Assembly (NCBI RefSeq): GCF_947077775.1
Contig: NZ_CAMTTE010000001.1
Span: 744,001 to 808,000 of the forward strand
Length of the DNA: 64,000 bases
Origin: Salinibacter pepae
GTDB taxonomy: Bacteria > Bacteroidota > Rhodothermia > Rhodothermales > Salinibacteraceae
Direction of reading: 5' to 3'
The position numbers and the translations under genes are program-made. The notes under the pieces are model-generated. The model saw nothing but the letters and a program-made list of their open reading frames with translations. It was not told where the DNA came from and ran no database searches. Of the stretch, positions 35,133 to 51,638 are shown piece after piece (the first letter of the stretch is position 1; the number at the start of each line of letters is the position of its first letter).

Positions 35133-38100
35133 ATGTCGTCTCCGCCGGCCGTCAACACCCCTGCCGCCGCCGACGCGACCCAGTCGGCGGCGGACACGGC
35201 CCTGTTCGGGAAAGACCCCATGCCCCGCCTCGTGGACGTCCACCCGATGATGGACCGCCCGTCGGACGAGCCGGCTCGGGTGCGCGTCTACCAGCGGTCG
35301 GAGGACTTTGCCTCCATCCACGAGGAGGAGGACACCTTCTTCCCGTTTTTCTTCCTCTCCGACGTCTCGCTGCTCGCGGATCGGTACCGGAGTGGGGGCG
35401 TCCACACGGCCACGCCGCTCAACGGCGACAACTTCTACCAGTACCTGCTGACCTTCGAGACGTGGAGCGACTACTGGGACGCCCTCCGGCAGGTCGAAAA
35501 CCGATCGGACAGCGACCAGCAACCGCCCGACGAGCTCTACCGAGTCGGGTCCCCCGCCCAGCAGTACCTCATGCAGACCGGGCGGTCGTGCCTTCTCGGC
35601 ATGACGCTGGACGACCTGCACCGCCTGCAGCTCGACATTGAAGTGTACTCCGAGGGCAGCTTCCCCAACGCCGACCGCCCCGACGACAAGGTGATCATCG
35701 TGGCCCTCTCCGACAATCGGGGCTGGGACGAGGTGCTGCACCTCCGCGACGGGATCGGGGAGGAGCAGCTGCTCCAGGAGCTCGTCTACGTCCTCCGGGA
35801 GCGGGACCCGGACGTGATCGAGGGCCACAACATCTTCGAGTTCGACCTTGCCTACCTCCTCGACCGCTGCGCCCTGCACGGCGTCGACTTTGCCATTGGG
35901 CGCGACGGGTCGGTCCCCCGCACCTACGACTCCAGCATGCGCTTCGCGGAGCGGACGGTCGACTACCCGGCCGTCGACATCGTGGGGCGCCACGTCATCG
36001 ACACCTACTTCCAGGTGATGTCGTTCGACGTGTTCAGCCGCGACCTCCCGGACTACAGCCTCAAAACGGCCGCCCGCTACTTCGACCTCGCCCCCGAGGA
36101 GCGCACCTACATCGAGGGCACCGAGATCGCCAACGCCTGGCGCACCGACCGGGCGACGCTGCTGGAGTACGCGCTCGACGACGTAATCGAGACGAAGCGG
36201 CTGGCGGGCCACCTCTCCGGCTCCACCTTCTACCTCGCCCAGATGCTCCCGATGACCTACGGCTCGTCGGCGCGGCGCGGCCCGGCGGGCAAGATCGAGA
36301 GCCTCTTCGTCCGGGAGTACCTGCGCCGGCGCCACGCCCTGCCCCGCAGCGAGTGGGGCAGCCAGTCGATGGGCGGCTACACCGACATCTTCATCACGGG
36401 CGTCATGGGCCCCATCGTCTACGCCGACGTGGAGAGCCTGTACCCGTCCATCATGCTCAACTACGACGTGCAGCCGTCCGGGGACACGCTGGACCTCTTC
36501 CCGCAGCTCCTGGAGCGGCTCACGGACCTGCGCCTGGAGACGAAGGAAGACATGAAGGAGGCCGAGGAGGAGGAAGTCCGCAGCGAGCTCGACGCGCGGC
36601 AGAGCTCTTACAAGGTGCTCATCAATTGCTTCGACCCAGAGACGGAGGTCGTAACTGTCGATGGCATTCGGCACGTCGAGGAAATCGAGGTTGGAGACCG
36701 GGTCTACTCTCTCAATCCGGACACCGGTGCGGTCGAGATCAAGCCCGTCACAGCCACCCAGTCTCAGCACTACGCGGGCCCGATGGTCGAGATAAAAAAC
36801 CAGCACACTGATTTTCTGGTTACCCCGAACCACCGGTTCCTAACACAGAGGTTCACGTCCGGTGAATACACGGACCTGGAGTGGGAAACGGCCGGCGACA
36901 TGCTGGAGGACCGGATTCGTCGCCGTTTGCCCTCTCTCCGCTCACTTCCCGCTACTCAAGAGAGACCGGGTCCGATTTCTCTATCTGCCGTGTGCGATCG
37001 ACTTGCGATTGAGCACAAAACAGGCCCGCGCGGCATCAAGGAGCTTCGTCGACAAGCACGCTGGCAGCCGGAAGAATACGGATTGACCGACTGGCTTCGC
37101 AGTCTTGGGGGGTTCGCAACGGAAGGAACGCTCTACAAAAGCAAAGCACAGTATGAGAATGGAAATGTGCGCGGCGTCTCGTACCGGACGCCCCCCTGCC
37201 AAAAAAACGACATAGGACGTTCTGAAATTTCGACCTTACTCAACCGGACAGGCATTACGTACAGCTCCGACCAGAACGGCCACTCTTTCTGTTCGAAAGT
37301 GCTGTATGAAATCCTGGAGGCCGAGTGCGGATCGGACAGTTTCTCGAAGCACCTTCCCCCCTGGATCTTTCAGCTTGGGCCCAAGGACCTGAAGATTGTA
37401 TTTGACACCTTGATGCAAGGGGATGGCGCCGCAAGTGGGGATCGTTTCACGACCTCCAGCGATCAGTTGGCCGAAGATTTTATCCGCCTTGCAATGCACG
37501 TAGGGCGTCGCGCCTTTCACATGCCGAATGATGGCAGCCACCGAATTCAAGTAAATACGGTTCGGGGCCAGCGCCCGACGGTCAAGCCGAAGCATCGGCA
37601 ACTGGTGGACTACGACGGAATGATCCACTGCCTGACCGTTGCTGACAACCACACGGTGCTCGCAGGGCGCAATCGCAAGTTCAACTGGACGGGTCAGAGC
37701 TTCTACGGGCTCCTCGGCTTCGGGCTCTCGGCCTTCAACGACTTCGAAGAGGCCGACCGCGTGGCGCGCACGGGGCAACAGATCCTGCGCCAGTTGATCG
37801 ATGAGATCCAGGCACGCGGCGGCACGGTAATCGAAGTCGACACCGACGGGGTCCTGTTCGTGCCCCCCGAGGACGTGCGGGGGGAGCAGGCCGAGATCGA
37901 CTACACCGTGGGCCTGACGGAGGCCATGCCGGAGGGCATCCGCGTCGGGTTCGACGGGCGGTTCAAGAAGATGCTGTCGTACAAGAAGAAAAACTACGCC
38001 CTCCTCACCTACGACGACGAGCTAAAGTTTAAGGGCTCCTCCCTCATCTCCCGCTCCAACGAGCCGTTCGGGCGCGACTTCGTCCGGAAGGCCATCCGCC

Positions 38101-38618
38101 GCCTCCTCGACCACGACGTGGCGGGGCTGCACGAGCTCTACGTGGACACCCGCGATAAAATCGTCAACAGCGACTGGGAGAGCGTGGAGCGCTTCGCCCG
38201 CACCGAGACGCTCAAAGACACGCTGGAGCAGTACGAGGCCGACGTGGAGGCGGGCCAGCGCCCCCGGGCCGCCACCTACGAGCTCGCCAGAGAGAAGCAG
38301 AACCGCACGGGCAAGCCCGTCAAGAAGGGCGACCGCATCACGTACTACATCACCGGCGACGACGCCACCGTCACGGCCTTCAAGCACTGCCGGCGGGCCG
38401 AGGAGTGGAACCCCGAGGATCCGGACGAGAACACCGCCTACTACTTGAAACGACTCGACGAGTTTGCGAGCAAGTTCGAGCCGTTCTTTGACGAGCACGA
38501 CTTCCGCCTCGTCTTCGCCCCGGAAGACCTCTTCGGCTTTTCAGCGGAAGGCATTGACATCCAGACCACCAGGCACGAGTCTGAGTATGAGGACAGTCAG
38601 GATGAGGTGCCGTTCTGA
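35133..38618 (+). CDS. Family B DNA polymerase containing an intein
   Basis: The 1161-residue precursor yields an 804-residue polymerase after removal of codons 499-855. Proofreading motifs are L-D-I-E-V-Y (ExoI, residues 167-172), G-H-N-I-F-E-F-D (ExoII) and Y-A-L-D-D (ExoIII). Polymerase motifs are Y-A-D-V-E-S-L-Y-P-S-I (A, 430-440), K-V-L-I-N/S-F-Y-G (B, split by the intein) and V-D-T-D-G (C, Asp903 and Asp905). All catalytic acids are present. The length matches bacterial Pol II and haloarchaeal PolB-type enzymes; the role is probably repair or translesion synthesis. It stands alone with no accessory gene beside it. Confidence 0.95.
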   Translation: MSSPPAVNTPAAADATQSAADTALFGKDPMPRLVDVHPMMDRPSDEPARVRVYQRSEDFASIHEEEDTFFPFFFLSDVSLLADRYRSGGVHTATPLNGDNFYQYLLTFETWSDYWDALRQVENRSDSDQQPPDELYRVGSPAQQYLMQTGRSCLLGMTLDDLHRLQLDIEVYSEGSFPNADRPDDKVIIVALSDNRGWDEVLHLRDGIGEEQLLQELVYVLRERDPDVIEGHNIFEFDLAYLLDRCALHGVDFAIGRDGSVPRTYDSSMRFAERTVDYPAVDIVGRHVIDTYFQVMSFDVFSRDLPDYSLKTAARYFDLAPEERTYIEGTEIANAWRTDRATLLEYALDDVIETKRLAGHLSGSTFYLAQMLPMTYGSSARRGPAGKIESLFVREYLRRRHALPRSEWGSQSMGGYTDIFITGVMGPIVYADVESLYPSIMLNYDVQPSGDTLDLFPQLLERLTDLRLETKEDMKEAEEEEVRSELDARQSSYKVLINCFDPETEVVTVDGIRHVEEIEVGDRVYSLNPDTGAVEIKPVTATQSQHYAGPMVEIKNQHTDFLVTPNHRFLTQRFTSGEYTDLEWETAGDMLEDRIRRRLPSLRSLPATQERPGPISLSAVCDRLAIEHKTGPRGIKELRRQARWQPEEYGLTDWLRSLGGFATEGTLYKSKAQYENGNVRGVSYRTPPCQKNDIGRSEISTLLNRTGITYSSDQNGHSFCSKVLYEILEAECGSDSFSKHLPPWIFQLGPKDLKIVFDTLMQGDGAASGDRFTTSSDQLAEDFIRLAMHVGRRAFHMPNDGSHRIQVNTVRGQRPTVKPKHRQLVDYDGMIHCLTVADNHTVLAGRNRKFNWTGQSFYGLLGFGLSAFNDFEEADRVARTGQQILRQLIDEIQARGGTVIEVDTDGVLFVPPEDVRGEQAEIDYTVGLTEAMPEGIRVGFDGRFKKMLSYKKKNYALLTYDDELKFKGSSLISRSNEPFGRDFVRKAIRRLLDHDVAGLHELYVDTRDKIVNSDWESVERFARTETLKDTLEQYEADVEAGQRPRAATYELAREKQNRTGKPVKKGDRITYYITGDDATVTAFKHCRRAEEWNPEDPDENTAYYLKRLDEFASKFEPFFDEHDFRLVFAPEDLFGFSAEGIDIQTTRHESEYEDSQDEVPF
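36627..37697 (+). mobile_element. Intein with DOD homing endonuclease in the polymerase gene
   Basis: 357 codons inserted between K-V-L-I-N and S-F-Y-G in polymerase motif B. Block A is C-F-D-P-E-T-E-V-V-T (Cys1), block B is T-P-N-H-R-F-L, and block F/G is I-H-C-L-T-V-A-D-N-H ending F-N-W-T-G-Q before Ser+1. The usual His-Asn end is replaced by Gly-Gln. Two LAGLIDADG-like motifs are seen: L-G-G-F-A-T-E-G (codons 658-665) and L-M-Q-G-D-G-A (760-766), each with its acidic residue, so the endonuclease looks intact. The DNA is visibly poorer in G+C than the flanking exteins, suggesting later arrival. Confidence 0.9.
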
Positions 38619-41882: not shown

Positions 41883-42428
41883 TCACCCCTCCCGCGTCGG
41901 GGCGATCTCCTCCTCGTAGCGTTGGAGGGCCCCGTCGACGATTCCTTTGGCCCGGTCCGGCCCGAAGAAGTCTTTGACCTGCACGGTCTTGTCCTCCAGG
42001 GCCTTGTAGTCCTGGAAGAACCGGCGCAGTTCTCGGAGACGATGATCGGGAAGCTCCTTGATGTGCCAGTAATCGTTAAAGGCCGGGTCGTCCAGGTGGA
42101 TGCAGATGATTTTCGCATCCTCCTCGTCGTCGTCGAGCATGTTCATGAGCCCGATGGGCCGGGCGCGCAGGATGCTCAGCGGATCGACGCTCTCCTGGGC
42201 CAGCACGAGCATGTCGAGCGGGTCCCCGTCGTCCGCGTAGGTGCGCGGGATAAACCCGTAGTTGGCCGGATAGACGACCGAGGAGTGGAGCATCCGGTCC
42301 ACCCGAAGCAGCCCGCTCTCCTTGTCGAGCTCGTACTTGACCTTGCAGCCCTGCGGAATTTCGATGATGCAGCTGAACATATCGGGGGCTTCTCCCCCCA
42401 CGGCAATGTCGTGCCAGGGATGGCTCAT
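41883..42428 (-). CDS. ppa: Inorganic pyrophosphatase, family I
   Basis: A 181-residue soluble enzyme hydrolysing pyrophosphate to phosphate, driving biosynthetic reactions. The signature [11 protein letters not shown] with its metal-binding Asp residues, the Y-P-A-N-Y-G-F-I-P strand and the conserved K-V-K-Y-E-L near the N-terminus are present. The length matches family I bacterial enzymes. It converges with the outer-membrane gene. The start at 42428 gives the expected N-terminus. Confidence 0.95.
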
Positions 42429-42533: not shown

Positions 42534-43202
42534 TTAGGCCCCCGCGTCCGTTTGGGGGGATGTTTTCAGGCGCTGGGACGGATCGAACGACCGCTCCGAC
42601 CCGAGCCACACCGCAAGGGCGGCACTCGTGATGTGCGTGGCCCCCGGGTCGAACGACAGGCCGTCGGTCTGCGTCTCACCCAGCGCCTCCATGTCGCCGT
42701 CGATCTCGTCGAGCCGCTCGGACAGGGCCTGCACGTCCCGGGCCAGCCGGGACGCCGCCTCGGTGGCGTGGTTTTCAAGGCGGAGCCGCCCGTCGCGGTG
42801 GAGGTTGACGAATCGACGCAGGACATCCCCGCCGCCAAGATGGACCCCGACCTCGTCGGGGGCGCCGGCCGTGGCCCCGCCCTCATCCGTGAGGGTCGCG
42901 GCAACGGGGTCAAGCCCCCGGTCTTCGAGGGCCCCCACGAGCGCCGCCCCGAAGTCGGCCCCCCGGTTCACGATCAGGCTCGTGCGGCCGATGTAGGGCT
43001 GGTCGGCCACGAGGCCCTGGAGGTGATCGGCAAGGTCGTCGGCCGACGCCACATCGGCGTGGTCCCGGATGCGGTTGAGCCGGTAGGTTGCCGGCTCGCC
43101 GGCGCCCTCTGTCGACTTTTCGAACAGCGCGTGGGTGACGTCCGGGGCGCCGTCTCCGTCGGCCGGGGTGACGTCGACGCCCAGAAAGAATGCGTGGGCC
43201 AT
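42534..43202 (-). CDS. Stand-alone protein resembling the RNase H-like nuclease domain of phage terminases
   Basis: A 222-residue soluble protein with the start at 43202 (MAHAFFLGVDV). The order of elements follows the terminase large-subunit nuclease: L-G-V-D-V-T-P (strand 1 with Asp), T-S-L-I-V-N-R-G-A-D-F-G-A-A-L-V-G-A-L (where terminases have V-D-x-x-G-x-G), L-D-P-V-A-A-T-L-T, and D-V-L-R-R-F-V-N-L-H-R-D-G-R-L. The end is T-H-I-T-S-A-A-L-A-V-W (terminases have H-D-D-x-x-x-A-L-A-x-W). The second and third catalytic acids seem replaced by Asn and Ile/Thr, so it may be inactive. No phage genes surround it. The assignment is by eye. Confidence 0.5.
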   Translation of the reverse strand: MAHAFFLGVDVTPADGDGAPDVTHALFEKSTEGAGEPATYRLNRIRDHADVASADDLADHLQGLVADQPYIGRTSLIVNRGADFGAALVGALEDRGLDPVAATLTDEGGATAGAPDEVGVHLGGGDVLRRFVNLHRDGRLRLENHATEAASRLARDVQALSERLDEIDGDMEALGETQTDGLSFDPGATHITSAALAVWLGSERSFDPSQRLKTSPQTDAGA

Positions 43203-43316: not shown

Positions 43317-44303
43317 TCACGCCGAATCGGAGCGGGTGGTGCAGTACTGCACACTAAAGTACGAGCGATCGTCCGTCCACACCGACTCGACCTCGAACCC
43401 CGTGTCGGCCGCGAGGCTCGCGAAGCCGTCGAGCGTGTACTTGTGTGAGTCCTCGGTGTGAATGGTCTCGCCCGCGTCGAACGCGAACGACTCGTCGGCC
43501 ACGGTTACCGACTGCGCCGTCGTGCTGCGGAGGTGGCTCTCCACACAGCCGCGCTCTTCGTTCCACAGGACCTGGTGCTCGAAGGCATCCAGGTCGAAGG
43601 TGGCATCCAGCTCCCGATTCATGCGACGGAGCAGGTTCTTGCTGAAGGCCGCCGTCACCCCCTCGGCGTCGTCGTAGGCGGCCGTCATCACGTCCACGTC
43701 CTTCTTCAGGTCCACGCCAATCAGCAGCCCGCCCTCCGGCCCCACCGTGTGGGCAATCTGTTCAAGAAACGCGCGGGCCTGGTCCCGGGGAAAGTTTCCA
43801 ATCGTGGAGCCCGGGTAGTAGCCCACGGTGCGGCGTGCCGACCGCGGCGGCTCGGGCAGCTCGAAGGACGTTGTGTAGTCCGCGCACACCGGCTGAATGG
43901 GGACCGCCGGGTAGTCCTCGGCGAGCGCCTCGGCGCTGTCGAGGAGGTGGCTCTTCGAGATGTCGACCGGCACGTACGACGCCAGGTCCTCCCCCATTTG
44001 CTCCAGCAGGATGCGGGTCTTCAGGCTGCTGCCGCTGCCGTACTCCACGAGGCGCGCCGCCGGCCCGATGGCCTCGGCCATGGCGGACACGTTCTCCCGC
44101 ATGATTCCAATCTCGGTGCGGGTGGGATAGTACTCCTCGAGCTCGCAGATCTTGTCGAAGAGCTTCGACCCTCGATCGTCGTAGAGAAACTTGGACGGAA
44201 TTTGCTTCTGGTCCTTGCGAAATCCACGCAGGGTCTCCTTCCGGAAGGACTCGGTGGTGGGCGCCTGGTCGAGGATGGGGTGAATGCTAGTTGAGGTAGG
44301 CAT
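43317..44303 (-). CDS. egtD: L-histidine N(alpha)-methyltransferase (EgtD-like)
   Basis: A 328-residue SAM-dependent methyltransferase. It trimethylates histidine to hercynine in ergothioneine synthesis. Conserved features are the Q-I-P-S-K-F-L-Y-D-D-R-G-S-K-L-F-D-K-I N-terminal block, the SAM loop L-V-E-Y-G-S-G-S-S-L-K, Y-V-P-V-D-I-S, and G-S-T-I-G-N-F, with E-D-S-H-K-Y near the end. The length matches EgtD. No egtB sulfoxide synthase or egtE gene is nearby in this window. The start at 44303 is the most upstream sensible ATG. Confidence 0.92.
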   Translation of the reverse strand: MPTSTSIHPILDQAPTTESFRKETLRGFRKDQKQIPSKFLYDDRGSKLFDKICELEEYYPTRTEIGIMRENVSAMAEAIGPAARLVEYGSGSSLKTRILLEQMGEDLASYVPVDISKSHLLDSAEALAEDYPAVPIQPVCADYTTSFELPEPPRSARRTVGYYPGSTIGNFPRDQARAFLEQIAHTVGPEGGLLIGVDLKKDVDVMTAAYDDAEGVTAAFSKNLLRRMNRELDATFDLDAFEHQVLWNEERGCVESHLRSTTAQSVTVADESFAFDAGETIHTEDSHKYTLDGFASLAADTGFEVESVWTDDRSYFSVQYCTTRSDSA

Positions 44304-45462: not shown

Positions 45463-46263
45463 CTATAGGTCGTTGAGGGCGCGTTTCACAATATCCTTCT
45501 CGAAGACCCCGGTCTTTCTTTGTGCGTCCGCGTCCGTTTCGCCCGGCGGCACCGGCGACTCCGCTCGGGGCGCGGGGGGCTCGTTGTCGTCTTCGGTCGC
45601 CCCGAGCATCTCGTCCAGGACGTTCTGCACCACCGACCGCAGCCGGTCGAGCTCGTCCCCCGAGACGTTCTCGTCGCAAATCTGCGTCGCGACGAACTGG
45701 GCCAGCGGCGCGTCGGGAGCGTCCCGCTGTTGTACGAGGTACGCTCGAACCTGACGGCTGCGGGTCCACGCACGCATGGCCGCACCGACGGCGTCCACTT
45801 CGAAGACCGGCCGGGTGAGCCGTCGCAACACGTCGACCTCGCTGGACGAGTGGTCGAGAAGGTCAAAGTCCAAGGTCGGCCCGTCGGGGGGCTCCGCCTC
45901 CCCCTCATCGACTGTGTAAAACTGAACCCGAATGCCGTTTGTGAACAGGACGAGCGGGACGTCCATCGCCTCGGCGTGCCGGAGCAGAGCGGGGGCGCCC
46001 GGTGCCTCCGGCGGCTTCGTCGCCGCCGTGCACTCGACCAGCATCACCGGTCGGCCGTCTCGCTTGAGGGCGTAATCCACCGTCTCGTCCTCCCCCTCCA
46101 CGCTTGCCTCCGGCTCCACAGCCCGCACGTCGAAGGGGTCGTATCCGAGTGCGTCGAAGAAAGGCAGGACGAGTGCAGTTTCGGTCGTTTTCTGGCAATC
46201 GAGGGCGGCACGCTGCCCGTCGGCCCGGGCCCGAAGCATCGAGAGTCGATCGGCGAGGTCCAT
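45463..46263 (-). CDS. Type I restriction R-subunit N-terminal-like protein
   Basis: A 266-residue protein with the start at 46263 (MDLADRLSMLRA). It resembles the HSDR_N_2 domain: F-F-D-A-L-G-Y-D-P-F-D-V, then E-D-E-T-V-D-Y-A-L-K-R-D-G-R-P-V-M-L-V-E-C-T. In nuclease-active members the last residues are E-x-K; here the Lys is Thr, so cleavage is doubtful. The C-terminal half is a helical region ending in a charged tail (G-V-F-E-K-D-I-V-K-R-A-L). No hsdM or hsdS gene is near. It may bind DNA or be a domesticated remnant. Confidence 0.7.
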   Translation of the reverse strand: MDLADRLSMLRARADGQRAALDCQKTTETALVLPFFDALGYDPFDVRAVEPEASVEGEDETVDYALKRDGRPVMLVECTAATKPPEAPGAPALLRHAEAMDVPLVLFTNGIRVQFYTVDEGEAEPPDGPTLDFDLLDHSSSEVDVLRRLTRPVFEVDAVGAAMRAWTRSRQVRAYLVQQRDAPDAPLAQFVATQICDENVSGDELDRLRSVVQNVLDEMLGATEDDNEPPAPRAESPVPPGETDADAQRKTGVFEKDIVKRALNDL

Positions 46264-46479
46264 GGGGGCGGGAGCACCAGGAAGGAGCACAGCGAGGGCC
46301 CTTCTTAACCCTCAAATACGATGCCAAGGCCCTTCCTCCCGGTGTCCGCCCCGAACGTCGTCCCGGCCGCCCGGACGGGTCGCGGTGCAGATGCCCCCCC
46401 AACGCACGCCCCCGGCCTCTTCCGGTGGCTTCCTTCGCGGACAGGGCCGTCCACAAATCTCGGCGATTGGCCGGACGGG

Positions 46480-46761: not shown

Positions 46762-49700
46762 TCAGGTCGACCCGTCTTTCGTTTCTGTAGGGGACCCGTC
46801 CTCGAGGGTCGGGGCCCGGTCGCAGATTCGACGGAGCACGGCCTCAACCTCGTCCCGGCGGACGCGTCCGGCCTCGAGGTCCTCGCTTACCGCCTCCAGG
46901 GCCCGGCGCCACCACGCCTCCGGGGGACGCTCCGCCTCCGACGTCAGATGGCCCTCCGCCCGGAAGTAGGCCTCCAGCTCGTCCACCTTGTCGGAGCGGA
47001 AGCGCTTGACCGCCCCGTTTCTCAGCCCGTCGAGGATGCGTGCGGCCTCCCCGCCGACGCGCTCCGCCAGGGCGGTCACGTCGTCGATGAAGGTGTCGGA
47101 CACGGCGTCCGCGGCCTCCAGGGCCGCCCGCCGCACAGGGGTCCCGCGTCCCACGCGCCACGCGGCGGCCCAGTGGTCCACCGCGCGGGCCCGTGCCTCC
47201 AAACGCCGGTAGTTCGACGAATCCAGGTCAATGAGCGAAAGGGCGCCCCGCTCGGCCAGGCCGGCAAGCTGCCCCCACCGCCGATAGGCGGCCTCCACGG
47301 CACGGCACAGCCGGTCCGCATCGTCGGTCAGGTACCACAGGTGCAACGCCGCAACCTCACTCCGGGGCGTCCAGACCGGGACGTCGAGGTGGCGCGCAAG
47401 GGCCTCGTGGCTGCGCTCCTCAGGGGGCGGGAGCGCCGGCGACGCAGGCCGGCCCGGTCGGAGGCCACCGGTTTTACGCGGGCCGTCGACCGCAACGCTT
47501 TCCCCATCGGCCCCGGACAGCGTGTGGACCGCGAGTGCCGTGTCGGTCTCGTCGAGCTGCCGCCGCCACTTCGCGACTTCGTCGGACTGTGCCGTCAGGT
47601 AGACCACCTGACGCCCCTCGGCGGCGATCGTACGAACCGCCTCGATCATGGCCGCGGCCTTCCCGTCGTCGCTGTTGGCCAGGGCCTCGTCCAAAACGAG
47701 GGGCGGCCGGATGCCCTGCTCCTGGGCCTCCACGAAGGCCATGCGGACGGCAAGTAGAAGCTGGACCTTGGTGCCCCCCGACAGTTCCTGGAGCGCGAGC
47801 CCACGCCCGGCGTCCGTCACCACACGGAACGTGCTCTCCGCCCGGTCGAGGTCCAGGCGGTAGCGGTCGCTCGTAATGTGCCGGAAGAGCTCGTCGGCAC
47901 GGGCGAAGACGGCCGGCAGATCCTGATTTCGGGTCCGCTCGTGAACGACATCCGCGAGGGCCTGCCCGACGACCCGGCGCAGGTCCCGGCGGCCCCGGCG
48001 CCGCAGCGCCTGGCGGGCCGACTGGTGCTCCGCGAGCGCTTCCTCGAGGTCGTGGTCCGTCTTCGCGTCCTCGACCTGCTGCTGAATGCGGCTGATCCGG
48101 TCGGAAAGGTCGTCGACCTGTTCGGCCTGCCGGGCTGCCTCCTCTTTCCGACGCTCCAGCCCTTCGGCCGTCGCGCCGAGCATCGATTCCTCGAAGCCCT
48201 CCCGTTCCTTGAGGCGCTCGCGTTCCAGCTCGACGGACCGCTCGGCCCGATTCAGGGCCTCCTCGGCGGCCTCGCGCTCGTCGAACTGCGCACACCACTC
48301 CGCGACCGTCTCGTCGCTCTCGTCGTCCAGCCCAAGCCGGTCAAACAGCTGCGCGATCTCGTCGTCGATCCGTTCAACCTGCGCCGTCGCCTGGTCGAGA
48401 CGCTGCTGCGCGTTTTCCCGATCGGCATGGGCCGCCTCAAGGGCCTGTTGGTCCTCCCGGAGCTGCTCCAGGGCCGCCTGGCCGTCGCTGATGTCCTCCA
48501 CGTGGTCATCCCCGTACGGCTCGACGAGGGCCTCCACCTTCGCCCGCCACGTCTCCGCCTGTCGCTCGGCCTCTCGCATTTTCTCTTCGGCCCCCATGGC
48601 CTCCGTCCACGCCGCCTGCCAGGCCCCCAGCCGCTGCACGAACCAGAGCAGTGAGTGGGCACCGAGCCCCGGATCTACGTGAAGCCGGTCGGCGAGCTCG
48701 CCCTCGCGTTCCCCCAACTCGGCCTGTTTGTCCTCGATGGCGTCTGCCTCGTCGGCATGGCGGGCCCACTCCTGTGCCTTCGCCGCCTCCAGCCGCGCGT
48801 CCGTCCAGTCCTGGAGGAGGGAGTCGAGGTGGGCGTGGACGGCCTCCACCGACCAGGTTGAGGGCGTGGGGAGGTCGAGCCGCTCGAAGCGGTGCTCCAG
48901 ATCGGGCCGACGCGTTTCCGTCGCGACGCCGGTCGAGCGGGGAGCGAAATACGCAGCGACGGCCACAACGGCGCCCGCCCCGGCCACGACCCAGCCCAGG
49001 GGCGCTCCGCCAAGTCCCAGCACGGCGCCCCCCACGACCACAGTCCCAGCCCCCGCGAGGGCCACATAGCGAAGGATCCGTCCTCGTCCTTTCCCGTCGG
49101 AAGCCGACGCTGGCTCCCGCAGCCACTCCGCAAGCTGCTCGACGCCACGGCGAAGTTGCTCCGGACTGGTCCCGGGGTCGGCCTCCCCGAATCGCCGCTC
49201 CAGGGCGCGGAGCGCCGCCTTTCGCCCCTGCACCTCCAGGCGTGACTCGGCCAGCGACTGGACCGCGTCGACCGCCGGCCCGTCGATCTGGGCCGCCGCC
49301 TCCTTGTCGTCCCCCGACAGGCGCTCCCACTCCGCCGCCTCCGTCTTTGCCGCCCGGGCTCGTTCGCGCTCCGCCTGTTCGAGGGCTGTTCGCGCCTCGT
49401 CCCATTCCTGCAGGGCCGTCCGGAGCGTATCGAGGGTGCCGTCCGGGAGCCCGCCCGCCGGAAGCCGGCTTTCGGCGATGCGCGCCTCCGCCTCTGTCCG
49501 CTGCGCGGTGGCCTCTTCCCGTTTCTCGACCGCCGCCTCCCGATCGGCCCGGAGGCGGTCGAGGCGGTCGGCCTCGTCGCCCTGAAGGGCCTGCATGCCC
49601 TCGGGAAACGCGTTGAACGCCCGTTCGGCCTCCTGACGCTCCTGCTCCGCCCGCACCACGGCCAGGGCCTGCTCGAGGGCGTCTCGGCACCGGGCCGCCG

Positions 49701-50334
49701 CCCGCGCCTCGTCCCGTTCGCGGCGGAGGCGCCGCAGCGACCGCTCTTTCCGCTCCAGATCCCGGTGCAGCGACCGGGCCGCCTCCACACGGCCCCGTGC
49801 CTCTTCAACCTCGCGCGTCTCCTTCAGCTTGCCCTTCGCGTACTCGCCAAAGCCGAGCGCCCCGGCGGCCCCCGGCACGTCGTACCCGCCCTGGGCCGCC
49901 TGCAGAATGGCGTCGGCCAGGGCCCGCTCCGAGTCCTCAGTCGCGGCGAGCAGGTCGCGCAGGGACATGTGGTAGCGCCCCCGGTGGCCGGGCGGCGGCA
50001 TGGACGGCGAGGAGGCCGGGACGCCGTCCTTCTGGTACTGCACACGACTGCCCTCCACGTCGACCCGCCACGGCTCGCCGCCCAGGCGAAACGTGCCCTC
50101 AATGAGGGGCCGCCCCCACCCGTAGGCCTCCGGCCACAGGAGCACCGTCACGGCCCGGGCGAGCGTCGTTTTGCCGGAGCCGTTCGGCCCTGCGATGACG
50201 TTGACGCCCGGGCCGAGCCCCTCGACGTCGAGCCCAAACGACCGGCCGTACATCCGTTGCACGGCGAGGCGGCGGACGTGGAGGGCGGCGTCGGCCGTCG
50301 CAGTCGGCATGTCGGGGGACGAGGCATTCGTCAT
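46762..50334 (-). CDS. YhaN-like (SbcC/Rad50-like) AAA ATPase with coiled coils
   Basis: A 1190-residue SMC-like ATPase. Walker A is G-P-N-G-S-G-K-T-T near residue 50, long Arg/Glu/Ala coiled-coil arms run on both sides of the centre, the signature is A-L-Q-E-L-S-G-G-T-K-V, and Walker B is P-L-V-L-D-E-A-L-A-N-S. Two hydrophobic segments lie mid-protein (about residues 415-465: A-L-A-G-A-G-T-V-V-V-G-G-A-V-L and G-W-V-V-A-G-A-G-A-V-V-A-V-A-A-Y-F). These would anchor the arms in the membrane, as in Bacillus YhaN. It overlaps the nuclease gene by 4 bp, so the two proteins should form a SbcCD-like DNA end-processing complex. Confidence 0.85.
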   Translation of the reverse strand: MTNASSPDMPTATADAALHVRRLAVQRMYGRSFGLDVEGLGPGVNVIAGPNGSGKTTLARAVTVLLWPEAYGWGRPLIEGTFRLGGEPWRVDVEGSRVQYQKDGVPASSPSMPPPGHRGRYHMSLRDLLAATEDSERALADAILQAAQGGYDVPGAAGALGFGEYAKGKLKETREVEEARGRVEAARSLHRDLERKERSLRRLRRERDEARAAARCRDALEQALAVVRAEQERQEAERAFNAFPEGMQALQGDEADRLDRLRADREAAVEKREEATAQRTEAEARIAESRLPAGGLPDGTLDTLRTALQEWDEARTALEQAERERARAAKTEAAEWERLSGDDKEAAAQIDGPAVDAVQSLAESRLEVQGRKAALRALERRFGEADPGTSPEQLRRGVEQLAEWLREPASASDGKGRGRILRYVALAGAGTVVVGGAVLGLGGAPLGWVVAGAGAVVAVAAYFAPRSTGVATETRRPDLEHRFERLDLPTPSTWSVEAVHAHLDSLLQDWTDARLEAAKAQEWARHADEADAIEDKQAELGEREGELADRLHVDPGLGAHSLLWFVQRLGAWQAAWTEAMGAEEKMREAERQAETWRAKVEALVEPYGDDHVEDISDGQAALEQLREDQQALEAAHADRENAQQRLDQATAQVERIDDEIAQLFDRLGLDDESDETVAEWCAQFDEREAAEEALNRAERSVELERERLKEREGFEESMLGATAEGLERRKEEAARQAEQVDDLSDRISRIQQQVEDAKTDHDLEEALAEHQSARQALRRRGRRDLRRVVGQALADVVHERTRNQDLPAVFARADELFRHITSDRYRLDLDRAESTFRVVTDAGRGLALQELSGGTKVQLLLAVRMAFVEAQEQGIRPPLVLDEALANSDDGKAAAMIEAVRTIAAEGRQVVYLTAQSDEVAKWRRQLDETDTALAVHTLSGADGESVAVDGPRKTGGLRPGRPASPALPPPEERSHEALARHLDVPVWTPRSEVAALHLWYLTDDADRLCRAVEAAYRRWGQLAGLAERGALSLIDLDSSNYRRLEARARAVDHWAAAWRVGRGTPVRRAALEAADAVSDTFIDDVTALAERVGGEAARILDGLRNGAVKRFRSDKVDELEAYFRAEGHLTSEAERPPEAWWRRALEAVSEDLEAGRVRRDEVEAVLRRICDRAPTLEDGSPTETKDGST

Positions 50335-51638
50335 TCCTGAGGCGCAGCGTCAGTCTGGGAGCGCAGTTCGTCGAGAAGCAGGAGGCCCTGACGCCAGACC
50401 ATGCCGGCGAGCGTCTCCCGGTCCGGCGACAGGGCGTCCGCGTCGGGGAGCGGGTCGTAGGCGGGGGAATCCTGCACCGCAGAGCATGCCGCTTTGATCG
50501 CAGCCCATGCCTCCTGGGCATGCTCGTCCTCCGCCCCGTTCCGCATCGCGAGCAGAAGCTGGGCGAGCACGGCCGGCGGGTCGGTGCCCTCCGCGATGCG
50601 CTCCAGGTCGAGGGCCGGGCGCGTCCGGGCGGCGGCCGCCTCCACGACGGCGGTCGCCCCCGCAACCGGCACCTCCAGCGCGCCCGGCCACGTCTCCACC
50701 AGGTCGCACACCGCACGATGGACGGGCGTGCGGCCCGTGACCGTGAGGCGACAGACGAGCCGCTGCGGCGTGGGGCCCTCCTCGCGGGCCGTACGGAGCC
50801 GGTCGCGCATCGCGTCCGTCACCGCGGCCTCGACGGCCCCCTCGTCGTCGATTGCGTCCACGTCCACCTCGAGATGCTCGTAGCGAAGGGGGGCGCGGGG
50901 CAGCTGGACCGCTGTGCTGGTCCCGTCCGGGGCCACCTCCACGCGCCAGGGACCGTGGGGCCCCGGTTCCGAGGGGTCCAGCGGCTGGAGCGAGCCGGGG
51001 TACAGCACGAGGGGCGACCGGTCGTCTCGCAGCGAGGGCGCATGGATGTGGCCCAGGAGCCACGCCGAAACGGGGCACTGGCGCAGGGCGGCGAGCGACA
51101 CCGGGGCGTAGACGCTCCCCGGGGCGTTCAGGTCGGCGTGCAACAGCCCCACCGTCGGGGCGTCGTCGCGGAGGCGCCCATCCGGAAACGACTCGACCGG
51201 AGAGGCCTGCTCGTGCGCCTCCCGAAACGACCACCCTACGAATTGAACGGGCGGCCGCCCCTCCGGCGCCACGGTCACGGTGCTCCACTCTCCCCCCCGT
51301 CCCAGAAGGTGAAAGTGCTCCGCCTCGACCATTTCGGCCAGGCGGGGAAGCGCATCGAAGTCGTGATTGCCGGCCACCGCCACCACGGGAATGCCGGCCT
51401 CCCCGAGCCGGCGGAGGCCCCGTTGAAGCGGGCCCAGTGCCTCGTACCGCTTGTTCTGATCGTCAACGACGTCCCCGGTCAACGCCACCACGTCCACCGC
51501 CTGCTCCACGGCGTACGACACCGTGTCCGCCCACACGGAATCGACCGCCCACGCCCGGTCGCGCGACTGGGTGCGGGACGGGTAGCGCCCGAGGTGAAGG
51601 TCGCCAGTACACAGAATCCGACACGATGGGTCGGCCAC
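50331..51638 (-). CDS. YhaO/SbcD-like DNA repair metallophosphoesterase
   Basis: A 435-residue nuclease. The calcineurin-type metal motifs are G-D-L-H-L-G (residues 12-17), T-G-D-V-V-D-D, and V-A-G-N-H-D-F-D, with later C-terminal His motifs (V-G-L-L-H-A-D-L-N and L-L-G-H-I-H-A-P). This matches SbcD/Mre11/YhaO. It is the first gene of the pair with the YhaN-like ATPase, sharing an ATGA overlap. It is predicted to process double-strand ends or hairpins in an ATP-dependent way. Confidence 0.93.
   Translation of the reverse strand: MADPSCRILCTGDLHLGRYPSRTQSRDRAWAVDSVWADTVSYAVEQAVDVVALTGDVVDDQNKRYEALGPLQRGLRRLGEAGIPVVAVAGNHDFDALPRLAEMVEAEHFHLLGRGGEWSTVTVAPEGRPPVQFVGWSFREAHEQASPVESFPDGRLRDDAPTVGLLHADLNAPGSVYAPVSLAALRQCPVSAWLLGHIHAPSLRDDRSPLVLYPGSLQPLDPSEPGPHGPWRVEVAPDGTSTAVQLPRAPLRYEHLEVDVDAIDDEGAVEAAVTDAMRDRLRTAREEGPTPQRLVCRLTVTGRTPVHRAVCDLVETWPGALEVPVAGATAVVEAAAARTRPALDLERIAEGTDPPAVLAQLLLAMRNGAEDEHAQEAWAAIKAACSAVQDSPAYDPLPDADALSPDRETLAGMVWRQGLLLLDELRSQTDAAPQE

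Follow-up and report, generated by a model that had tools for sequence, protein, structure and literature searches.

A free-standing terminase-nuclease-like protein, probably nuclease-dead, in a Salinibacter chromosome

What is a protein resembling the nuclease of a phage large terminase (TerL) doing between two host genes of a bacterial chromosome? The question is raised by a gene, here called PSE1, in a 64,000-nucleotide stretch of DNA (the window) from the 3.6 Mb genome of Salinibacter pepae. PSE1 occupies positions 42534–43202 on the minus strand, with its ATG at 43202 and its stop codon at 42534–42536, and encodes 222 residues; the nearest named relative found at this locus, from Salinibacter altiplanensis, is 84% identical. 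Downstream lies ppa, encoding inorganic pyrophosphatase (41883–42428, minus strand; Pfam PF00719), and upstream lies a gene for an egtD-like histidine-specific methyltransferase (43317–44303, minus strand; Pfam PF10017). A scan of the locus for promoters found none, and its three terminator-like sites, against 1.7 expected, are near chance.

The first-pass annotation had described this gene as an orphan with no phage genes around it, and the neighbourhood agrees. A PHROGs scan of nine proteins encoded between 35133 and 51638, a set that does not comprise every small frame, returned no terminase, head or portal family. The matches were to DNA polymerase, endonuclease, phosphoesterase and SbcCD-like families; the long SbcC-like protein also matched a tape-measure family (E 1e-6), which we take for a shared coiled coil. 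No ATPase domain is fused to PSE1 or encoded beside it; the gene is surrounded by ppa, egtD and further host genes. Elsewhere in the window, a family B DNA polymerase (35133–38618, plus strand) carries a Hint (intein-like) insertion from about residue 496. An SbcD-like phosphoesterase and the long SbcC-like ATPase are encoded at 46762–51638 (minus strand) in frames overlapping by 4 bases, and the product of 45463–46290 (minus strand) has an HSDR_N-like endonuclease domain and matches phrog_4225 (endonuclease; E 1.1e-27).

Does PSE1 have the fold of a terminase nuclease? An AlphaFold2 model built with a 22-row alignment (pLDDT 81, pTM 0.81) has predicted strands at residues 2–12, 21–31, 39–48, 74–79, 100–105 and 120–123 and predicted helices at 54–66, 83–94, 124–136, 148–174 and 189–203. 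This is the order of elements in terminase nucleases, as had been proposed from the letters for the RNase H-like domain. When the 1000 PDB chains ranked highest by Foldseek were re-aligned to the model, terminases and their nuclease domains took ranks 1–22 (Z 13.9–11.3), headed by the G20c nuclease (5m1f; Z 13.9, rmsd 3.4 Å, 150 residues aligned), and were followed by the IS621 recombinase (Z 10.1) and RuvC (Z 9.4). Foldseek itself gave no PDB row with E < 0.001 for the model; the human cytomegalovirus terminase nuclease came first (E 2.2e-3), and below it RNase H-like proteins stood alongside unrelated proteins, metallo-beta-lactamases for example. Among predicted models of viral proteins, 32 matched the fold at E ≤ 0.001. 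Of the 23 that bore a name, 20 were called terminase, one an intein region, one uncharacterised and one a capsid protein. The structure prediction therefore did not turn up a different fold, and PSE1, as modelled, has the TerL nuclease fold. It shares this fold with Terminase_6C (PF17289) and the G20c nuclease, but differs from the latter in its sequence (12% identity in the structural alignment), in the loss of its metal ligands and in having no fused ATPase.

The profile-profile comparison points the same way. With hhalign, the PSE1 profile matched a profile of five real TerL nucleases at 97.4% (E 1.3e-11), and this comparison of sequences indicates that PSE1 is homologous to TerL nucleases. 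Searches with single sequences and library models gave far less. None of the 22 PSE1 family members matched a Pfam terminase model, and the Pfam and PHROGs searches with the window protein alone yielded nothing useful. Sequence searches of the PDB reached E 0.17 at best, whether the protein or the profile served as query. Against phages, the window protein retrieved two records at E 8 and its relative L022 none. In viral contigs, the protein and the profile picked out 5 and 11 pattern-matching stretches, respectively, with no relative among them, in short-pattern scans that can miss relatives.

Outside its own family, the PSE1 profile found two true terminases in genomes of the order (L051 and L052; E 5.5e-11 and 1.8e-9). 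In both, the ATPase frame overlaps a separate nuclease frame by 4 bases. The ATPase frames match Terminase_6N (E 5.1e-13 and 5.9e-13), and the nuclease frames, which have the canonical D, D and HDD residues, match Terminase_6C (E 9.9e-9 and 1.6e-7) and, at E 1.4e-41 and 1.1e-43, phrog_27743, whose function is listed as unknown. This is also the sole terminase-related PHROGs family matched among the 22 PSE1 members, weakly, by eight of them at E ≤ 1 (best 1.9e-6), with no match from the window protein itself. Over 394 genomes of the phylum, phrog_27743 gave one match (E 8e-4) and none in a genome with PSE1; over the order, PF17289 was matched in 6 of 114 genomes, the window's genome not among them.

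Which kind of terminase, then, stands closest to PSE1? Among 80 TerL loci kept from viral contigs, there are seven nuclease frames (L133 and L135–L140) in which no more than 84 residues precede the match, and in an eighth case (L134) the ATPase frame breaks before the nuclease start. A separate upstream ATPase frame is recognisable for L133, L135 and L136 only; the other four are called split from the nuclease frame alone. Split large terminases with the ATPase and nuclease halves in separate frames are thus seen at L051:78–1582, at L052:461–1908 and in the viral contigs L133, L135 and L136. The known phage records nearest the L052 nuclease are fused TerLs. The closest phage relatives found for PSE1 are free-standing nuclease halves of split terminases. 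Like the free-standing nuclease subunit of phrog_27743, PSE1 is a separate domain of similar size and motif order. On the other hand, D, D and HDD are intact in L051 and L052, each of which has an adjacent ATPase gene (phrog_7579 in L051), whereas in PSE1 the last two acids are gone, there is no ATPase partner and the C-terminal tail is different.

Could PSE1 still cut DNA? In the G20c TerL, D294, D347 and D429 are described as indispensable, with their Asn mutants the least active, and mutants of H427 and D428 were weakened too (PMC5389553). Going by family motifs, D294, D347 and D429 would correspond to D10 (codon 43173–43175, minus strand), N79 (codon 42966–42968, minus strand) and T189 of PSE1. 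At the first site, which lies in GVDV, 17 of the 22 members have D, two have E (L012 and L013), two have A (L019 and L020) and one is missing the residue. At the second, 20 have N and two have Y (L019 and L020), with no acidic residue, and at the site of the last H-D-D Asp all 22 are non-acidic. The reading of the V-D motif as V-N was borne out, as the profile comparison pairs N79 with the catalytic Asp. This register, with one inserted residue, is supported because L022 and L023 read VVNATGEIG and VVNATGRMG against VVDATGVG of true TerL; in the MAFFT alignment A4, which lacks that gap, the Asp falls opposite R80.

When residues are counted from the invariant Trp, it is G187-A188-T189 (codons 42636–42644, minus strand) that stands in the place of H-D-D, and L022 and L023 have HDA and HDV at the same spacing to that Trp. 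The first-pass annotation had read this motif as H-I-T; the loss of the acids stands in either register, but H190-I191-T192 lies three residues off. Likewise, its broader claim that the catalytic acids were lost applies to the second Asp and the last Asp of H-D-D and not to the first, D10 being kept. L022 and L023 are early branches of the tree, and their motifs suggest an order in which the ligands may have been lost. Judged from these residues, two-metal DNA cleavage by PSE1 is very unlikely. The retention of D10 in 17 of the 21 readable members and of N79 in 20 of 22 may reflect contact with a metal, a nucleotide or DNA. The same retention would fit an enzyme of another kind working with one metal at D10 and N79; however, no ligand set is invariant, given E at D10 in L012 and L013 and A and Y at the two sites in L019 and L020, and we consider such an enzyme highly improbable.

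Besides the core, the conserved positions are D10, E28-K29, Q62, P69–T74 (PYIGRT; codons 42981–42998, minus strand, just before the core strand bearing N79), N79, G85, S193, W199 and the tail E203–L212. Residues W199–L212 form the motif WLGSERSFDPSQRL (codons 42567–42608, minus strand), with the family pattern W..ERSFDPS..LK, in which W199, D207, P208 and L212 are invariant across the 22 members; beyond the Trp, the motif is absent from L051, L052 and PSE2, the second clade described below. The family alignment (A1) leaves out L002 (94% identical), L024 (a contig-end fragment) and two second pieces, L025 (of L023) and L026 (of L022), and several of its rows end at the match end, short of the stop. 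Could the gene nevertheless be a phage relic drifting towards a pseudogene? Ligand loss does differ in degree between members, as decay would have it; but none of the 26 listed matches has an internal stop, the C-terminal motif has its invariant residues and selection is purifying, all of which leaves decay with very little credence.

The recurrence of PSE1 goes beyond chance. It is found in 24 of the 27 genomes of its family, in a single copy each (second pieces in G017 and G025 count as one gene, and G023 has a contig-end fragment), and the three genomes without it belong to one genus. A class-wide profile search matched 27 of 244 genomes at E ≤ 0.001, namely the 24 with PSE1, the two with split terminases and one with PSE2, and in a phylum sample 7 of 394 genomes matched, all of the same family; PSE1 was thus not found outside its family in either set. 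Its place is mostly between egtD and ppa. On the same strand, ppa lies downstream in 23 of the 24 genomes, the match ends being about 100 to 305 bases apart (in L022 the ppa match covers its first 79 residues only), and egtD lies upstream in 19 of 24; of the five that remain, two run off their contigs.

The site also exists without PSE1. In four genomes of three other families (L121–L124), egtD and ppa lie side by side, about 90 to 240 bases apart, and the profile has no match there, which makes this the empty site. These genomes come from a ppa search that matched 16 of 24 genomes, of which nine ppa regions were examined: in four egtD adjoins, in three, all of one genus, the two genes are about 2 kb apart, and in two (G018 and G047) there is no egtD on the stretch. 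In the genus that lacks PSE1, a 586-residue transporter-like gene lies between egtD and ppa in L119 and L120, the two loci whose intervening frames were read, and the third genome (L118) has similar spacing. This membrane protein, encoded at L119:5442–7202 and L120:5188–6948 (both plus strand), is by eye what we take to be an AbgT-like transporter, and the egtD–ppa site therefore holds different inserts.

Could the steady neighbour be the partner? An accessory or regulatory protein of the adjacent pyrophosphatase, encoded as its operon partner, would account for ppa following PSE1 in 23 of 24 genomes, including three (G015, G017 and G025) in which egtD was not found on the stretch searched. 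Yet egtD and ppa adjoin in three families without PSE1, so that adjacency may just mark the insertion site, and the match ends are separated by about 100 to 305 bases. In G018, PSE1 and ppa are on different contigs, and no ppa was seen near PSE2 in G086; in G038, G047, G057 and G086 it is on another contig or far away. A role as pyrophosphatase partner is, in our estimate, improbable.

Is the gene under selection? Compared with five relatives, PSE1 has dN/dS values of 0.261, 0.148, 0.174, 0.142 and 0.229, the first three from the closest genomes and the last two from more distant ones, where the dS of PSE1 exceeds 1. PSE1 is under purifying selection. The neighbours range from 0.032 to 0.165 (ppa) and from 0.051 to 0.163 (egtD); against the three closest genomes, the PSE1 value is 1.6 to 8 times that of ppa or egtD, and against L005 it is not higher. 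The higher value might fit a less essential gene or one engaged in conflict. Together with the fixed chromosomal place and the presence in 24 of 27 family genomes, purifying selection supports the proposal that the gene was domesticated.

A rival reading is a dominant-negative antiviral factor, in which the dead subunit would mimic the nuclease half of a split terminase, dock on the ATPase half or the portal and poison packaging. The closest phage relatives found are separate nuclease subunits that need a separate ATPase, a split terminase pair (L052) is present in G024, a family genome without PSE1, and PSE1 has a higher dN/dS than its flanking genes against the three closest genomes. On the other side, dN/dS is well below 1 overall, PSE1 is fixed in a housekeeping neighbourhood, G024 is one genome and not a correlation, and the charge of PSE1 has diverged from that of the subunit it would mimic. 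We therefore regard the antiviral reading as quite unlikely.

Does PSE1 bind nucleic acid, as the proposal of a domesticated, non-cutting DNA-binding factor would have it? Domestication and the loss of essential ligands were upheld, whereas DNA binding was not. Per 100 residues, the net charge is −9.0 for the window protein, −10.3 on average for the PSE1 family and −9.9 on average for PSE2, against +0.3 for nine split phage nucleases (a count that includes the near copies L133 and L135 and excludes L134), −1.8 for 76 fused TerLs, −2.8 for L051 and +1.9 for L052. Basic residues make up 8.1% of the window protein, compared with 12.9% of the nine split nucleases. RuvC, which binds DNA and belongs to the same RNase H-like superfamily, keeps its catalytic acids; it has a lower fold score than the terminases and is less acidic than PSE1, at −2.0 to −4.6 per 100 residues in eight genomes with PSE1 or PSE2 (that of a ninth, L213 in G018, was dropped for its wrong register). 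As PSE1 is more acidic than both the split nucleases and RuvC, nucleic-acid binding loses support. The acidity is partly a halophile adaptation, and because the neighbours are acidic too (ppa −8.3 and egtD −7.0; the family B polymerase is at −5.3), the contrast is suggestive only.

A non-cutting factor whose dead cleft still holds DNA or RNA, and so blocks or marks a site, would nevertheless fit the predicted terminase-nuclease fold and the retention of D10 and N79. D-to-N changes in nucleases commonly spare nucleic-acid binding. Set against this are the charge and the low share of basic residues, and we judge a nucleic-acid binder to be unlikely.

Did the same thing happen more than once? A second, probably dead clade, PSE2 (L053:1456–2304, plus strand, and six relatives, L100–L105), is present in families f13 and f10, and a search of 114 genomes across the order found it in 7. 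Of its sequences, L102 was truncated where its match ends, before unread letters, in alignment A2 and left out of A4, and L101 was read to its first stop. Over the phylum sample its profile matched 3 of 394 genomes, two of them by cross-matches to PSE1. Its AlphaFold2 model (pLDDT 78, pTM 0.67) reaches a best Z of 12.9. PSE2 resembles PSE1 in its predicted terminase-nuclease fold, in its host neighbours and in being probably nuclease-dead: as aligned, it has no acid at the first two catalytic sites. It differs in that H-E-D or H-R-D is kept in three of six readable rows, in a long insertion before the last core helix and in having moeA-like, SCP2-like or MoCF-domain genes nearby instead of egtD and ppa. 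By hhalign, PSE2 matches PSE1 at 98% (E 2.5e-13, 121 columns) and TerL more weakly, at 82.6% (E 9.7e-6).

For the tree, 114 domains were reduced to 85 without near copies, and drawing 26 of the fused ones at random brought the set to 61. The group of L134 was changed manually from fused to split, its ATPase frame breaking before the nuclease start; L138 was grouped as split although its match is preceded by 84 residues. PSE1 and PSE2 form one clade (100/99) and the fused TerLs stand apart (100/98); therefore, the dead clades fall on the split-nuclease side. The split nucleases do not themselves form a single clade, and L139 joins the fused ones (82/95). The bootstrap had not stabilised, and the grouping of PSE1 with PSE2 could stem from long-branch attraction. 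An AU test did not reject the alternative in which PSE1 groups with the split nucleases to the exclusion of PSE2 (p 0.185), and there may therefore have been one adoption or two. Bacteria of this order might, once or twice, have domesticated a split-terminase nuclease as a dead mimic that jams the ATPase half of an invading phage, a scenario to which we assign a low probability; if true, PSE1 would be a resident, virus-derived, dominant-negative restriction factor.

How, then, is PSE1 best explained? That it is a nuclease-dead relative of TerL nucleases kept by its host we consider very likely. That it is a domesticated, non-catalytic TerL nuclease which probably binds protein is the reading we favour, and we think it likely. 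Under this favoured reading, an ancestor of the Salinibacter family would have acquired the free-standing nuclease subunit of a split-terminase phage, and the gene would have become fixed between egtD and ppa. The metal ligands would then have been lost, the second Asp becoming Asn and the last Asp of H-D-D disappearing while the first was mostly kept, and the near-neutral charge of the phage nuclease would have been lost too. The RNase H-like core would have been retained and the conserved C-terminal tail gained. PSE1 would now be a soluble, non-enzymatic binder of another macromolecule, probably a protein, that might be held through the former active-site face (D10 and N79) and the tail. This protein-binding mechanism we put forward tentatively, at slightly less than an even chance.

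Host-kept virus genes are known. Within the open-licence literature, in listings that give the starts of abstracts, we found no report of a packaging-terminase nuclease as a chromosomal pseudoenzyme, and the term "split terminase" did not occur among the matches listed. Nor did titles and abstract starts of the papers listed for Salinibacter ruber and inorganic pyrophosphatase reveal work on the PSE1 gene. The comparison made here gives a suggestion for phrog_27743, whose function is listed as unknown: it is probably a terminase nuclease subunit, and we propose this annotation. Furthermore, the sequences in this system reveal the probable split-terminase type of the progenitor, the empty site, a loss of ligands that is graded and a second dead clade, and the route from an enzyme to a non-enzyme is therefore testable.
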